Origin: Methanocaldococcus lauensis
GTDB lineage: Archaea > AGJL01 > Methanococci > Methanococcales > Methanocaldococcaceae
Assembly: GCA_902827205.1 (NCBI GenBank)
Contig: LR792634.1
Location: 1,302,001 to 1,366,000, forward strand
DNA length: 64,000 nucleotides
Reading direction: 5' to 3'
Of the stretch, positions 21,064-31,955 are shown piece by piece. Below the pieces are notes generated by a model. It made no database searches. It had not been told where the DNA came from and worked only from the letters and a program-made list of their open reading frames with translations. The position numbers were made by a program, and so were the translations under genes. Position 1 is the first letter of the stretch. Every line of letters starts with the position of its first letter.

Positions 21064-22005
21064 TTACTCATTTTCTATTTCTCTTCTAAGTTCTCCAAGT
21101 GTAGATACTTTTTCAGCATAGGCATCATGCCTGTGGATACTTTCCATGTTAATCTGTCTAATTAAGACTTTTGTTTCATCAGGTAGATGTTTAAACTTTT
21201 CCACAATTCTCTTAGCCATCTCCCTAACACAGTCTTCAACAAATTTAGGATTTTTATGACTCTGCTCTACTACATAAGCCTCATCAGTCCTCTTTAAAAT
21301 CCCACAAATTTCTGCACTCATTGATTTTTTAATTATATCAATAATCTCCATAATTTCTATGTCGTAACCTGTAGGAACCTCCAATATAATTCTTCCAATC
21401 CCTCTCTGATTATGTGTAGCAAAAATAACAGAATCAACGATTTTTTCTATATCATCATCTGAAAAACCTTTCTCCTTCAATCTTTTAATAGACATTTCTT
21501 TTATTAAATTTTGTGCACATGGGCAGGCTGTGATTCCTACTACTTCAGCTCCAACAATTTTTGTTAATTCAATTTTATCTCCTTTTTTTATTCCTCTTGC
21601 TCCTCCCATAATTTTATGAATTTCTTGAGAATATTTCCCAGATATAGGACTTTTTTCTTTTGTCATAAAGTCACTAACCATAAAAACCTCTGCCTCTGTA
21701 GCATATTCATGTTTTTCAAATAATCTTTTAACAATCTCTTCACAAATAGTTTCCATCTCATAACTATCCATTTCTAAGGCTTCATCAATTATTCCCTCTA
21801 TAACTTCTGGATTTCTTGACATATGTATTCCTTTCTGAGAACTTGGAAGATTAACAAAAACCTCAAAAGTTGATAATAAAATTATAGGTCTTTTATTTTT
21901 TCTTTTCAATCTAACGAGTTTTTTTAAGTTTGTAATTCCCACTCTCGTCAATGATATTTTAACATCTGGCTCAAAATTCTGAATATCACATTTCCAATTC
22001 ATCAT
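21064..22005 (-). CDS. mptA: GTP cyclohydrolase MptA (Fe(II)-dependent, FolE2 type)
   Basis: MptA opens the methanopterin pathway by turning GTP into 7,8-dihydroneopterin 2',3'-cyclic phosphate. The protein (313 residues) is FolE2-like: HMSRNPEVIEGIIDEA, the cysteine motif GITACPCAQNLI, ATHNQRGIGRI and HKNPKFVEDCVREMA. Start at 22005 with AGGTGA five bases before it. The 5' end overlaps the Orc1/Cdc6-like gene by 20 bp, so synthesis of the two is probably coupled. Confidence 0.9.
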   Translation of the reverse strand: MMNWKCDIQNFEPDVKISLTRVGITNLKKLVRLKRKNKRPIILLSTFEVFVNLPSSQKGIHMSRNPEVIEGIIDEALEMDSYEMETICEEIVKRLFEKHEYATEAEVFMVSDFMTKEKSPISGKYSQEIHKIMGGARGIKKGDKIELTKIVGAEVVGITACPCAQNLIKEMSIKRLKEKGFSDDDIEKIVDSVIFATHNQRGIGRIILEVPTGYDIEIMEIIDIIKKSMSAEICGILKRTDEAYVVEQSHKNPKFVEDCVREMAKRIVEKFKHLPDETKVLIRQINMESIHRHDAYAEKVSTLGELRREIENE

Positions 22006-23218
22006 TGTCTTCACCTATTAAAACATCCCTAAGTTCTTTAGATAGTCTATAATAAACATTGTTTCCATCCCGTTCTTTATAAATATATCCCATCTCATAA
22101 ATGTCAGATAAGTGGGTTCCAATAGTGCTTGGAGATTTTTTTAGATACTCTGAAAGTTGAGTTACTGTTGCAGACCCACCAAGTTTTGCCATGGCCTTAA
22201 CAATTTCAGACTGTGCTGGAGTTAAGTGATTTAAAATCTGATGTCCTACACTAATTCCAAGAGAATGTATTGCCTTTTTTACTACATCTTCATCAATTTT
22301 TGTTAAGCCATGTTTTATTGCTATAGAGATTGATTCTGAACATGTCATTATTATCTTTCTTGGAATTCCGTCACATTCTTCAACTATTTTATGTATAGCA
22401 TCTTCAGTAAATGGGTCTAATTCATCAGCCCCTTCAATATGAGCATCTTCTAATCTTCTTATAATTAAATCGTAAGATTCATCTTTAGATAAAGGAGGCA
22501 TGTTTATTATTTTTGGGATTCTATCTTTTATTGGAGGAGATATTTTTGTTAAATCATCCATTAATGTTGGAGATCCTGCCATAAATGTCAATATTCCCTC
22601 CTCATATAAAAATGAATGGAAAAATTGTAATAATGATAGACAACTCTTTTTTGCGAATTGATCTGCCTCGTCAATTAATATTATACATAATCTATCTGGA
22701 CTTTTAACTTCATTTATTAAATATTCTAAATCTCTCTCTATTCTTTCTCTTGGATAATGTATTGGAACCTTATCTCCGTAGTTATTTAATTTTCTATACA
22801 TATCTAAGATTCTATTAGAATGCTCCATATAATCAGTTTTTATAGTTCCACTCATCGTAATAATGTTTTCAGTTAAGATATTGTATAGTAGTTGTATCAA
22901 AAACTGTCTTGGTGTTACTTGAGATGCAGTCATCTCTACTACCCAATGTCCCTGCTTTTTTGTTGCATAGTATATAATGTTAAGCATTGAACTCTTTCCT
23001 ATACCCTTAGTTCCAACTATTGCCGCATTTGCCACACTTCCATGTAAGGCTGATCCTAAAATCTCCCCAATTTCTCTCAACTCACTAACTCTCCCTACAA
23101 AAAACTTAGTGTTTCCTCTTATGGGCTTTTCAGAAAATGGATTATACTTTAATTTTAACTTGTGCATAGTACTCGCTATTGAACTCGCAGACATTTGTAT
23201 AAACTGTATTGGGTCCAT
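21986..23218 (-). CDS. Orc1/Cdc6-like AAA+ ATPase, candidate replication initiator
   Basis: A 410-residue AAA+ protein with a C-terminal winged helix, the layout of archaeal Orc1/Cdc6. It has NPFSEKPIRGNTKFFVGR before the ATPase core, Walker A GTKGIGKS (about residue 69), Walker B IILIDEAD (about 178), a sensor-1-like FMAGSPTLMDD, and a wHTH from about 330 (GGSATVTQLSEYLKKSPSTI). Methanocaldococcus has no standard Orc1/Cdc6, and the homologous M. jannaschii gene has been proposed as a divergent one. The start at 23218 has a strong site (GGTGAGAGG); 28 more in-frame residues upstream are unlikely. It is flanked upstream by repeat-rich AT DNA. It could instead be a general archaeal STAND-type ATPase. 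Confidence 0.7.
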   Translation of the reverse strand: MDPIQFIQMSASSIASTMHKLKLKYNPFSEKPIRGNTKFFVGRVSELREIGEILGSALHGSVANAAIVGTKGIGKSSMLNIIYYATKKQGHWVVEMTASQVTPRQFLIQLLYNILTENIITMSGTIKTDYMEHSNRILDMYRKLNNYGDKVPIHYPRERIERDLEYLINEVKSPDRLCIILIDEADQFAKKSCLSLLQFFHSFLYEEGILTFMAGSPTLMDDLTKISPPIKDRIPKIINMPPLSKDESYDLIIRRLEDAHIEGADELDPFTEDAIHKIVEECDGIPRKIIMTCSESISIAIKHGLTKIDEDVVKKAIHSLGISVGHQILNHLTPAQSEIVKAMAKLGGSATVTQLSEYLKKSPSTIGTHLSDIYEMGYIYKERDGNNVYYRLSKELRDVLIGEDNDELEM

Positions 23219-23862
23219 ATCCCTCTCACCAAAATAAATGTATGTTTTTCGAATTTTTGTTTTGACTATTTTATATATATTTCGAAAGTTAGAATCTTCC
23301 AAATTTTAATTAATTTTTATATATAAATTAACTATAAGTATAGATAATTTTAAATTACTTGTGAATCTAATAATAAAATATAAGAAATATTATGAATCTA
23401 ACTTTAAATTATGTAAAATCACAATCGAACATTCTCAGAATTAAACTTGAATAAAAATCCAAATTATATATATAGTATTACTATGATATAAAGATTTTTT
23501 GAATTTTTCTCATAGAAATAAAAATAAAAACTTGAACTTTAAAAGATCGTGAATCTAAAAATTTTAGATAAAATAACTATGAACCAAAAATTATATATAG
23601 TATTAACAATACTTAAAAATTTTGATAGAAAATAATATTAGAATAGTAGTTGAGATATATTCCAAAAAAGAGATATATATTTGAGATAAAAGAATTATAT
23701 AACTTAAAAATTCTCCAAAGGTTAGTAATACTACATTGCGTAATACTGGGGGAAATTAAAGTCATGAATCAAAAACTTTATAAATGATTAGTTTAAAAAT
23801 AATTGAGTAAATATGAAAATTTTGATTTAAATTTTATAAAATAATAAATAAAGGTGTTAGAT
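23219..23862. other. 644-bp AT-rich gap with paired TGAATC-type repeats (possible origin part)
   Basis: No gene is visible. A degenerate direct repeat TGAATCTAAAA recurs at 23362, 23393, 23550, 23580 (as TGAACCAAAAA) and 23765 (as TGAATCAAAAA); the first four form two pairs with 30-31 bp spacing. TATATATAGTATTA occurs twice (23467 and 23592). TTCGAA occurs at 23248 and 23281, the second joined to a TATA box for the minus-strand ATPase gene (AATATATATAAAA, about 23268-23279). The plus-strand HTH gene has its promoter at the right end. Confidence 0.55.
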
Positions 23863-24393
23863 ATGAAAAGACTTCCATACGAATTAGTATCAACTATATT
23901 CAGAAAGGCTATTCTACATTATGTGTTAATACGTGGCACAACTTATCCACAATTACTCTCAAAAAATTTGAATATATCGAAAGGTCTTGCCTGTTCTTTT
24001 TTAAGGCTATGCTCGGCGTTAAATGTAATGAAAAGGGAAAGGGCGGGACATAAAGTATTATATTCATTTACAACCAAAGGATTGGCCATATTAAAAAGAT
24101 TAGCCCCAGAAGTATTCGATTTGAGTTTTTCGAATGTTTTCGAACATTTACATAAAAAGAAAATTGCCACTAAGTATTACCCACTAAGTAAGATAGGGTT
24201 TGAAGTCAAATGGAAGAAGGATAAACTTGGTGGATACATATTTTCCTTCTTTGATTCCAATGGAGAGCATTTAGGAGATGTTTTTAGAAGTAATAATGGG
24301 CAATGGTGGTGTGTTATCTGCCAGTGTGATAACTGCAAACATATTGAGTATCTGAAAAAACTTTATAAAATATTGGAAGATCAAAATAAATAA
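23863..24393 (+). CDS. Winged-helix protein with SWIM-like zinc motif
   Basis: A 176-residue protein that I do not recognise. Residues 5-75 look like a winged helix (YPQLLSKNLNISKGLACSFLRLCSALNVMKRERAG, then SFTTKGLAILKRL). The C-terminal half is beta-rich and ends with CQCDNCKH, which fits the CxCxnCxH zinc pattern of SWIM domains with a short spacer. Start ATG at 23863 has AAGGTG six bases before; a GTG at 23854 is the alternative. It lies between two repeat-rich AT gaps beside the Orc1/Cdc6-like gene, so a role at the putative origin is plausible. Confidence 0.6.
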   Translation: MKRLPYELVSTIFRKAILHYVLIRGTTYPQLLSKNLNISKGLACSFLRLCSALNVMKRERAGHKVLYSFTTKGLAILKRLAPEVFDLSFSNVFEHLHKKKIATKYYPLSKIGFEVKWKKDKLGGYIFSFFDSNGEHLGDVFRSNNGQWWCVICQCDNCKHIEYLKKLYKILEDQNK

Positions 24394-24394
24394 A

Positions 24395-24424
24395 TTTCGA
24401 ATTTTCGAATTGCATGTATGTATA
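24395..24424. repeat. Left arm of a perfect 30-bp inverted repeat with TTCGAA boxes
   Basis: This arm begins right behind the stop of the HTH gene. It contains TTCGAATT twice in tandem (8-bp period), followed by GCATGTATGTATA. Its exact reverse complement is at 24742-24771, with all 30 bases matching. Confidence 0.85.
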
Positions 24425-24741
24425 GGGTCATTGAATTTGAAAAAATTCTATAAGTTGAGAATTATCACAAGAATAAGATAGTAGTAATTATGTTTTATTT
24501 TGTAGAATAGATAGTAATAATCAGATTTTTCATTAGAATAAGCAGTTTATTATTGTTATTTTTTATAAATATTAGAAGTTTAATAATATTTTTATTAAAT
24601 ATTTTAATATTATTTTTTAATTAATTTTATCTTTATTTATTTTTTGTTTTTAACATATATAGAGAAATATAATATAATTATGTAAAACATTAGTTTGTGA
24701 TAATCTAACTAAAATTTAATTAGGTATACCATCTGGAAGTA

Positions 24742-24771
24742 TATACATACATGCAATTCGAAAATTCGAAA
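24742..24771. repeat. Right arm of the perfect 30-bp inverted repeat
   Basis: Exact reverse complement of 24395-24424. It reads TATACATACATGC followed by AATTCGAA twice in tandem. Directly to its right is ATCTTATAAG, which could be a TATA element served by the CGAAAA as BRE. Confidence 0.85.
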
Positions 24772-24914
24772 ATCTTATAAGAAATTTATATTTAAATTAA
24801 TTTCTAAAAATATAAAATTTATGTCAAAAAAGAAAAACAAAAAAGTGTCATAACTATGCACAATACATAAATAATAATAAAATATAACTATTTTGTATGA
24901 TTGTAAAATTTTTG

Positions 24915-25976
24915 TTATATGTAACTCGAAAATTCGAAAATCCGTATATTCCAAGGTATGCTGTCTAATAAGTAAATGGAAAACCATGAGTTATAATATT
25001 CTTTATATTTTTGGATTAAATCCAAAAGAGTGCTTCTATTTAGTTTAAATCTAAATCTTAATTTTCCTTTGTATTTTATTTTTGTTAAAATCCCTAATTT
25101 AACTAAATCATCCAAATATTTGTATAATGTAGATAGTTTGTAATTAACTTTATATATAATATCTTCAATTTTAAATTTTCTTAGTTCAACAATAACCTCA
25201 ACCAATTTTCTATATTTCGAATTAACTATATATGGTAAAATTTTAAGCCAAGGTATTTTTAATTCTCTAAGTGTCTTTATATTTCTTTTTGAATGCTTTA
25301 ATATAATATAAATCATATCTAAGTTTCCGTTAGTTATTTTTAATAAGTAGGATGCTACTTTTTTACTTATATAATATCCATGAACTTGTGCAAAATATTT
25401 TATTGTTGCCTCAGTATTTAAAATACCTTCTGGGAAAATCCTTTTAATTATTTTATGGCAATCAATTGGATACCTTAAAACAACACTTATATTGTTTTTT
25501 CTCAATACTTTAACAAAGTTTATAAAACTCTTTTTATAGTGCCACATTCTTATATCATGTATTTCTAAAACTAATATTGGATTTAAAGCTCTTAATAAAG
25601 AAATTACTTTTCCTATTACTTTTTCAAATTCCCATTTCCTTATATTTTTAAATAGATCACCTATTCCTCTATACCACGCTTTTTTTGCCCTATAATATTT
25701 ATCAAATTTTATTTTTTCATCAATATATTCTAAAAGATTTTTTAGCCAATGAGCATTCTTATAATTCCTAAATAAGTAATATTTATCTTTAATTTGATAA
25801 ATTAGTTTAGATATTGTTTTTTTTAAGTTAGGAGTGGCTAAAATTCTAATTATGGGTATATTCTTAGCTACTATAAATTCTCCATTTTCATCCAAATTTA
25901 GTAAGTTGTATCTATCAGTTGGAATTAAATACAATCCATTTAAAAATTCCTCAGGAACTGTTTTTACAATTTTCAT
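24915..25976 (-). CDS. AAA+-like protein with degenerate Walker A and C-terminal winged helix
   Basis: A 353-residue protein of no named family. Its architecture parallels an archaeal AAA+/STAND ATPase. A P-loop position is occupied by ATPNLKKT (47-54), where the invariant Gly of GxxxxGKT is Lys. The Walker B position is LVLEIHDI (135-142), which lacks the acidic pair. SVVLRYPID resembles sensor 1, and ISKKVASYLLKITNGNLDMIY resembles the lid. A winged helix follows (about 262-330, FKIEDIIYKVNYKLSTLYKYLDDLVKLGIL). It is probably unable to hydrolyse ATP. It overlaps cbiL by 4 bp (ATGA), so it is cotranscribed with cofE-cbiL, and its end carries an origin-type box. Confidence 0.6.
   Translation of the reverse strand: MKIVKTVPEEFLNGLYLIPTDRYNLLNLDENGEFIVAKNIPIIRILATPNLKKTISKLIYQIKDKYYLFRNYKNAHWLKNLLEYIDEKIKFDKYYRAKKAWYRGIGDLFKNIRKWEFEKVIGKVISLLRALNPILVLEIHDIRMWHYKKSFINFVKVLRKNNISVVLRYPIDCHKIIKRIFPEGILNTEATIKYFAQVHGYYISKKVASYLLKITNGNLDMIYIILKHSKRNIKTLRELKIPWLKILPYIVNSKYRKLVEVIVELRKFKIEDIIYKVNYKLSTLYKYLDDLVKLGILTKIKYKGKLRFRFKLNRSTLLDLIQKYKEYYNSWFSIYLLDSIPWNIRIFEFSSYI
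24926..24941. repeat. Third TTCGAA-type box
   Basis: TCGAAAATTCGAAAAT repeats the core of the right arm (24758-24773) base for base, without the GCATGTATG part. It lies inside the last codons of the minus-strand gene 24915-25976, where it encodes the residues IFEFS. Confidence 0.7.
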
Positions 25977-31199: not shown

Positions 31200-31955
31200 T
31201 TATTTATTATTTTTACTTAAAAACTCTCTTATAGCCTTTTCAACACTATTAATAGCAATGTATCCTGCCTTATGTAAAATAGTGTCATTTAATTCTTTGT
31301 CTATTTCCATACTACCTAAGCAAGGATAGTTGTGATGAGCATTAGCAATCTCTTCTTTTAAATCGTCTAAAGAAATCCCTTTTAATCTTTTAGCTATGTA
31401 GTATGTTTCTCCACAGGGAGCAGAGATTTCAACTTTAACATCTTTAATAATATTATTTTCAATATAAACAGTTAATTTTGGCTTTCCTATTCTAAAATAG
31501 TCAATAAATTCATTTATAACCTTATTGTTTTCTTTTTTTTCTAATGAGCAAAAGGGTTTCGGGTTTTCGAACTCAATATTGAGTTCGTTACAAACTCTTT
31601 TTAAATCTCTTCTTAGTGCAGGAGATAAATCATGAGGAGTTTCAGAAGGAACTATTAAGGCTTTGTAATTTTTTTCTTTTAACAATAATGGTAATTCATA
31701 CAATAGATCTTCATGCAATTGAGCTATGCAAATATCACCCTCTGGAAGATCTGGAAGATATTCATAAGGATCTTCAACAAACTCCTCATAAACATTTTCA
31801 ACAACAACATTTTTTACATCATTCTTAAAACTCCAATCTCCTCTACAATTATAACAATCTTCACAAATCCTACAAAAATCTGGCTCATTTAATAAATTTT
31901 TATAGAATTTTTCCATCCTCTCGTTTCCTTTGTGGTGAATAAATATAGCTTTCAT
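31200..31955 (-). CDS. DUF166 family protein
   Basis: A 251-residue member of DUF166, the second in the window. The shared elements are APCGETYYIAKRLKGISLDDL and NYPCLGS. The N-terminal part has an extra cysteine cluster (CRICEDCYNCRG, about 28-39) that could bind Fe-S or zinc; the paralogue at 6734 lacks it at that place. Such proteins have been labelled putative thymidylate synthase, but nothing here proves it. Confidence 0.75.
   Translation of the reverse strand: MKAIFIHHKGNERMEKFYKNLLNEPDFCRICEDCYNCRGDWSFKNDVKNVVVENVYEEFVEDPYEYLPDLPEGDICIAQLHEDLLYELPLLLKEKNYKALIVPSETPHDLSPALRRDLKRVCNELNIEFENPKPFCSLEKKENNKVINEFIDYFRIGKPKLTVYIENNIIKDVKVEISAPCGETYYIAKRLKGISLDDLKEEIANAHHNYPCLGSMEIDKELNDTILHKAGYIAINSVEKAIREFLSKNNK

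Follow-up and report, generated by a model that had tools for sequence, protein, structure and literature searches.

Here, we describe an inverted-repeat element in a 64,000-nucleotide stretch of the Methanocaldococcus lauensis chromosome (the window; contig LR792634.1, positions 1,302,001 to 1,366,000), in whose numbering the positions below are given. The element occupies a 521-bp gap between two convergent genes, HTH and P3 (Table 1), in a genome whose median convergent gap is 13 bp; on the far side of HTH lie the gene for a divergent Orc1/Cdc6-like ATPase (the Orc-like gene) and, next after it, mptA. An earlier note on this DNA, made from the sequence alone, had reported a perfect 30-bp inverted repeat around A/T-rich DNA, with arms composed of a tandem motif plus a second one, beside an Orc1/Cdc6-like gene and a small HTH/SWIM-like gene. 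Its anatomy is confirmed: the arms are complementary at 30 of 30 bases and enclose a core of 317 bp, and each contains a tandem TTTCGAAT pair with an 8-bp period and GCATGTATGTATA in addition. G+C content is 16.1% over the whole core and falls to 7.9% in its centre. The gene surroundings stand in part, as HTH does adjoin the element and the Orc-like gene lies one gene further, with no direct contact. Features beyond those of that note are the P3 gene, the inner boxes with their mirrored layout, a third copy resembling an arm, and TTCGAA sites clustered over 2 kb.

Table 1. Features of the element and its flanking genes (window coordinates).
Feature	Position	Strand	Basis or remark
Orc-like gene: divergent Orc1/Cdc6-like AAA+ winged-helix ATPase	21986..23221	-	M. 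jannaschii MJ0774 ortholog by position; start by conservation
Two TTCGAA boxes (23248, 23281) in the Orc-like gene promoter region	23248..23286		Position conserved
HTH gene: winged helix and C-terminal SWIM-like zinc module WCx2CQx4CxH	23863..24393	+	No Pfam/NCBIfam family
Left outer arm: TTTCGAAT x2 and GCATGTATGTATA	24395..24424	+	Repeat analysis; order-wide model match
Left inner box AATTATCACAAGA	24460..24472	+	35 bp inside left arm; conserved alignment block
Very A/T-rich centre, 7.9% GC	24535..24660		Presumed unwinding region
Asymmetric conserved AT block (CATATATAGAGAAATATAATATAATT)	24654..24679		Alignment
Right inner box GATTATCACAAAC	24693..24705	-	36 bp inside right arm; alignment
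Right outer arm: exact inverted copy of left arm	24742..24771	-	Repeat analysis; model match
P3 gene: winged helix at the C terminus; AAA+ (Orc-like) part, probably degenerate, without Walker A	24915..25976	-	No family
Third, partial arm copy (model positions 1-24) at the P3 3' end	24916..24939	-	E 3.8e-4

The 521-bp gap was shuffled 2000 times and never yielded a perfect inverted match of 30 bp; the arm pair is present once in the genome. Copies of the 30-mer at many unrelated promoters would, according to the earlier note, have spoken against an origin; the 30-mer, with as many as 3 mismatches allowed, has no second site in the single contig of 1,479,331 bp that makes up the genome. TTCGAA is a rare sequence, with about 49 sites in the 864 kb sampled (98 strand-counted matches, the motif being a palindrome), and is clustered here, with 10 sites within 23248-25216 (about 2 kb) that reach into the Orc-like gene promoter; some of these sites, including those in that promoter, occupy corresponding places in many species. 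A short conserved inverted repeat (CTTATAAGAAA...TTTCT, 24775-24815) on the outer side of the right arm is possibly a separate operator or an RNA hairpin. Outside the element, tandem TTTCGRRTTTTCGRR also occurs at 31557-31571 within ORF 31200-31955 and, in four loci of relatives (L041, L044, L045 and L046), on the other side at a comparable distance, some 3.7 kb to the left of the HTH stop.

Flanking genes

The neighbouring gene is correctly described as a small HTH/SWIM-like gene: HTH combines a winged helix with a zinc module in which W-C-x2-C-x4-C-x-H is invariant and which forms a small beta/zinc fold beside the winged helix. Its fold matches are ArsR/MarR regulators, with AspA, the pNOB8 centromere-binding protein, among them. 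In the structure prediction for P3, confidence is good over the first 250 residues (mean pLDDT 84). Foldseek ranks human ORC subunits, Orc1/Orc2 of A. pernix and Apaf-1 highest, and these superpose poorly (TM 0.13-0.25). The AAA+ lid model Hda_lid scores in 7 of 22 P3 members, below threshold; no Walker A motif is found in the P3 alignment; and a comparison of the P3 and Orc-like profiles yields an alignment confined to the winged helix. Because the TM-scores are poor and the Hda_lid hits sub-threshold, the structure-based reading of P3 as an ATPase-dead Orc-like protein is a lead, not a result. In draft genome G003 (contig 5, 46043-47065; locus L048) the P3 gene carries one in-frame TAG, either a sequencing error or the mark of a pseudogene.

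Both Walker motifs of the Orc-like ATPase are intact (A, GTKGIGKSS; B, IDEAD). It scores 38 bits against TIGR02928, whose cut-off is 181 and is passed by none of the 16 Methanococcales genomes tested, in agreement with the claim of the earlier note that standard Orc1/Cdc6 is missing in Methanocaldococcus; the Orc-like profile finds no match among PDB sequences at E 0.001. Orc1/Cdc6 proteins of the Methanococcales are very divergent (PMC5333045). The longest open reading frame of the gene (21986-23302) begins with a TTG inside its own promoter. Conservation favours the ATG at 23221, for a product of about 411 aa.

Conservation across the Methanococcales

A model of the arm, built on sequence only, was searched over 35 Methanococcales genomes and matches at the HTH-P3 place in 25, with weak and partial matches away from it. 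The ten genomes lacking a match comprise two fragmented assemblies (G005 and G029) and eight genomes of a loss group described below; in G020, G024 and G025 a single arm is above threshold. HTH and P3 are convergent across a gap of 483-756 bp with both arms in 20 of 20 genomes examined, and the order Orc-like gene, HTH, P3 is kept in 19 of 20 loci, from Methanocaldococcaceae to Methanococcaceae. Of 23 aligned genomes, 22 have a core of 300-328 bp (315-319 bp in most Methanocaldococcus, in which the arm spacing is about 312 bp; longer, about 580 bp, in G021), and the core interior is only 64% identical between Methanocaldococcus species. Across 32 arms the consensus is TTTCGAGTTTTCGAGTnGCATGTATGTATA, and 13 of its 32 columns are invariant. 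Within a genome, the arms differ from each other at a mean of 2.95 positions, compared with 5.29 between genomes, and none of 5000 random re-pairings gave a within-genome value as low. The arms of a genome thus evolve in concert, which would be expected of two sites read by one protein.

Inside the arms, most Methanocaldococcus genomes have a second mirrored pair, AATTATCRCAAAA (ATTATCRCAA), offset by 35 bp on the left and 36 bp on the right; the offset is 34-38 bp in Methanotorris-like genomes. A third, partial arm stands at about +532 in most Methanocaldococcus. It is close to certain that the HTH-P3 gap holds a conserved, sequence-specific cis element. This element is ancestral to the order.

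Among the genomes compared, we take G008 to resemble M. jannaschii, G006 M. fervens, G010 M. infernus and G018 M. maripaludis C5. The HTH-element-P3 cassette of G010 (104-106 kb) lies about 190 kb from the Orc-like gene (297 kb) and keeps both arms and the third copy, having moved as one block; no TTCGAA is found in the surroundings of the G010 Orc-like gene. This separation ties the element to HTH and P3, which are its obligate partners, rather than the Orc-like gene.

Eight genomes (G013, closed at 1,504,113 bp; G016, G026, G028 and G031-G034; loci L165-L166) lack the element together with all three genes (Orc-like, HTH and P3). The HTH search covered the first seven of these; G034 has no Orc-like, P3 or arm match. 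No canonical Orc1/Cdc6 scores above the cut-off in the seven loss genomes searched. In an mptA tree, the four loss genomes placed group as a single clade (100/99) that is nested among carriers; mptA of G013 and G016 adjoins an unrelated gene. A single deletion could account for the absence of all four parts and, since the three genes and the element are adjacent, their co-loss argues only weakly for joint function. As this clade lives without them, the system is dispensable and not universally essential. The clade may represent natural Orc-less, origin-less replication, and offers a natural comparison for origin-independent replication.

Rearrangement axis and strand skew

If the element is an origin, rearrangements should preserve each gene's distance from it. 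The genome under study and G008 were compared through 517 reciprocal best hits in about 100 synteny blocks, and gene distances from the element correlate between the two (rho 0.28, and 0.48 with blocks within 120 kb excluded; permutation p <= 0.004 at all four exclusion distances). An axis search that ignored the element gave rho 0.38, whereas shuffling reached a 95% maximum of 0.29 (p=0.003); the best axis, at 1395 kb in the genome under study and 600 kb in G008, lies 70 kb away from the element in the former and 95 kb in the latter. Bootstrap 5-95% ranges are +8 to +333 kb and -274 to +117 kb, respectively, and the opposite pole scores equally. Rearrangements between these genomes are therefore symmetric about an axis near the element, which lies within a broad error, with origin and terminus indistinguishable. 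In the M. infernus-type genome, comparison of the cassette with the Orc-like gene gave no symmetry signal in 440 kb, a third of the genome.

After correction for coding strand, GC skew gives a signal neither at the locus (p = 0.68) nor elsewhere in the genome, and cumulative GC and AT skew (864 kb sampled) and corrected third-position skew show no significant sign switch. Dominated by the coding strand, skew is uninformative here. Skew-type analysis of M. maripaludis likewise had no clear outcome (PMC3984812).

Interpretation

In archaeal Orc1/Cdc6-ORB origins, inverted boxes flank an A/T-rich stretch near an Orc1/Cdc6 gene (PMC4010727). The locus shares this layout with origins of Pyrococcus, Sulfolobus and haloarchaea, including the Orc1/Cdc6-type gene nearby, but differs from them in its box sequence and in the additional conserved HTH and P3; moreover, the score of its Orc-like protein is well short of the family cut-off, and the gene can be unlinked. 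Two consensus patterns for ORB and mini-ORB match at chance level overall and nowhere at the locus, so that the arm motif is, as the earlier note had it, unlike classical ORB boxes. A winged-helix protein other than Orc1 can also define an archaeal origin, as WhiP does at oriC3 of Sulfolobus islandicus, in a different group of organisms (PMC5333045). In the Methanococcales, where recognisable Orc1/Cdc6 is lacking, initiation has been termed "an intriguing unknown" (PMC3984812).

We consider it likely that the HTH-P3 gap is the chromosomal origin of the Methanococcales, or the core of one, of a new subtype whose boxes are bound by HTH, P3 and/or the Orc-like ATPase. The earlier proposal of a candidate origin is thus strengthened by the single copy, the order-wide sequence and spacing, the convergent gap and the axis nearby, while initiation itself is what we infer. 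In the proposed mechanism, the outer arms (tandem TTTCGRRT and GCATRTATGTATA) would be initiator-binding boxes in inverted orientation, and the inner ATTATCRCAA boxes would be sites for a second factor or for another domain of the same factor. Recognition would be by the proteins encoded in the flanks, HTH through its winged helix and zinc module and P3 as a probable ATPase-dead Orc-like protein; the A/T-rich core would melt, as in archaeal origins with an unwinding element between inverted boxes; and the divergent Orc-like ATPase would cooperate with HTH and P3 and load MCM. The TTCGAA boxes in the ATPase promoter suggest feedback on this gene.

That these parts make up a dedicated class of origin, with a complex of HTH and ATPase-dead P3, an Orc-like loader acting at a distance and a nested clade that initiates with neither Orc nor this origin, is a more tentative reading, which we hold to be somewhat short of an even chance. 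If true, Methanococcales would start replication by means of a lineage-specific complex.

The claim of novelty needs dividing, as the element appears new and the neighbourhood had already been predicted for M. jannaschii. Z-curve analysis had placed an origin there beside the Cdc6-like gene, apparently on composition (Zhang & Zhang 2004, as cited by PMC5333045 and PMC2643942); no description of the mirrored element, its partners or its order-wide conservation was found in the papers searched. Multiple origins were read from marker-frequency work on M. jannaschii (Maisnier-Patin 2002, in PMC4588119). A literature search, mainly of open-access papers, found neither the inverted element nor the M. 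jannaschii genes at these places described, and a prior description is possible. The Z-curve interval is reportedly the Orc-HTH gap and not the HTH-P3 gap, beginning, as numbered in G008, a single base beyond the HTH start.

The strongest rival is a centromere-like site for chromosome partition, at which HTH would bind arms and inner boxes and, with P3, anchor or segregate the chromosome near the origin while not itself initiating replication. One site per genome, long inverted boxes and a dedicated winged-helix protein all suit this reading, and since partition sites are commonly found near origins the rearrangement axis fits it as well. The element also resembles the AspA system of pNOB8 in its winged-helix protein, its palindromic site and the weak fold match to HTH, but AspA matches no better than ArsR/MarR regulators in general, the site layout is different, HTH carries a zinc module, and no partition ATPase of the ParA/SegA type lies alongside. 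The A/T-rich centre and the fixed separation of about 312 bp, too, suit melting better than a partition array, and we judge partition unlikely. Still lower is the probability that the true origin is the Orc-HTH gap (about 23303-23853), with the element as an accessory or control region. TTCGAA boxes occur in that gap and the in silico placement of the M. jannaschii origin by the Cdc6-like gene favours it (PMC5333045, PMC2643942), but in G010 the cassette stands apart from an Orc-like gene whose surroundings lack TTCGAA, and the symmetric, fixed-length architecture is confined to the HTH-P3 gap.

Promoters were the main alternative of the earlier note, and the arms might be operators or promoters for transcripts, running outward or inward, that control HTH, P3 or a small RNA. 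CGAAA is the BRE-like element of the genome under study, TTCGAA boxes stand in the Orc-like gene promoter as well, and a BRE-TATA matrix trained on 372 upstream regions rates the right arm as promoter-like in the outward direction (8.6 bits; left arm, 7.2). That much of the alternative stands, but its outward TATA part is not conserved and inward scores are at background in most Methanocaldococcus. Both neighbouring genes terminate at the element, which leaves none to drive; with convergent neighbours, ordinary gene promoters are not expected in the gap. Rfam and tRNA searches found nothing at the locus. Promoter logic also leaves the mirrored spacing of about 312 bp, the co-evolving 30-bp arms and the nested inner boxes unexplained, and we regard a regulatory element as improbable. 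The ends of a transposon-like or integrated element can likewise be perfect inverted repeats around A/T-rich DNA; here, place and length are the same across two families and the genome holds no other copy, while the exact arm pattern was not found in viral contigs nor HTH and P3 in plasmids. The shared HTH-P3 position and the lack of further copies refute a mobile element, to which we assign next to no probability.

To date, this element is the leading candidate for the start of chromosome replication in Methanococcales, which do without the usual archaeal starter protein. The candidate is defined at base resolution and comes with two previously unassigned partner proteins. The same element is found in M. 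maripaludis-type genomes, where genetics exists.
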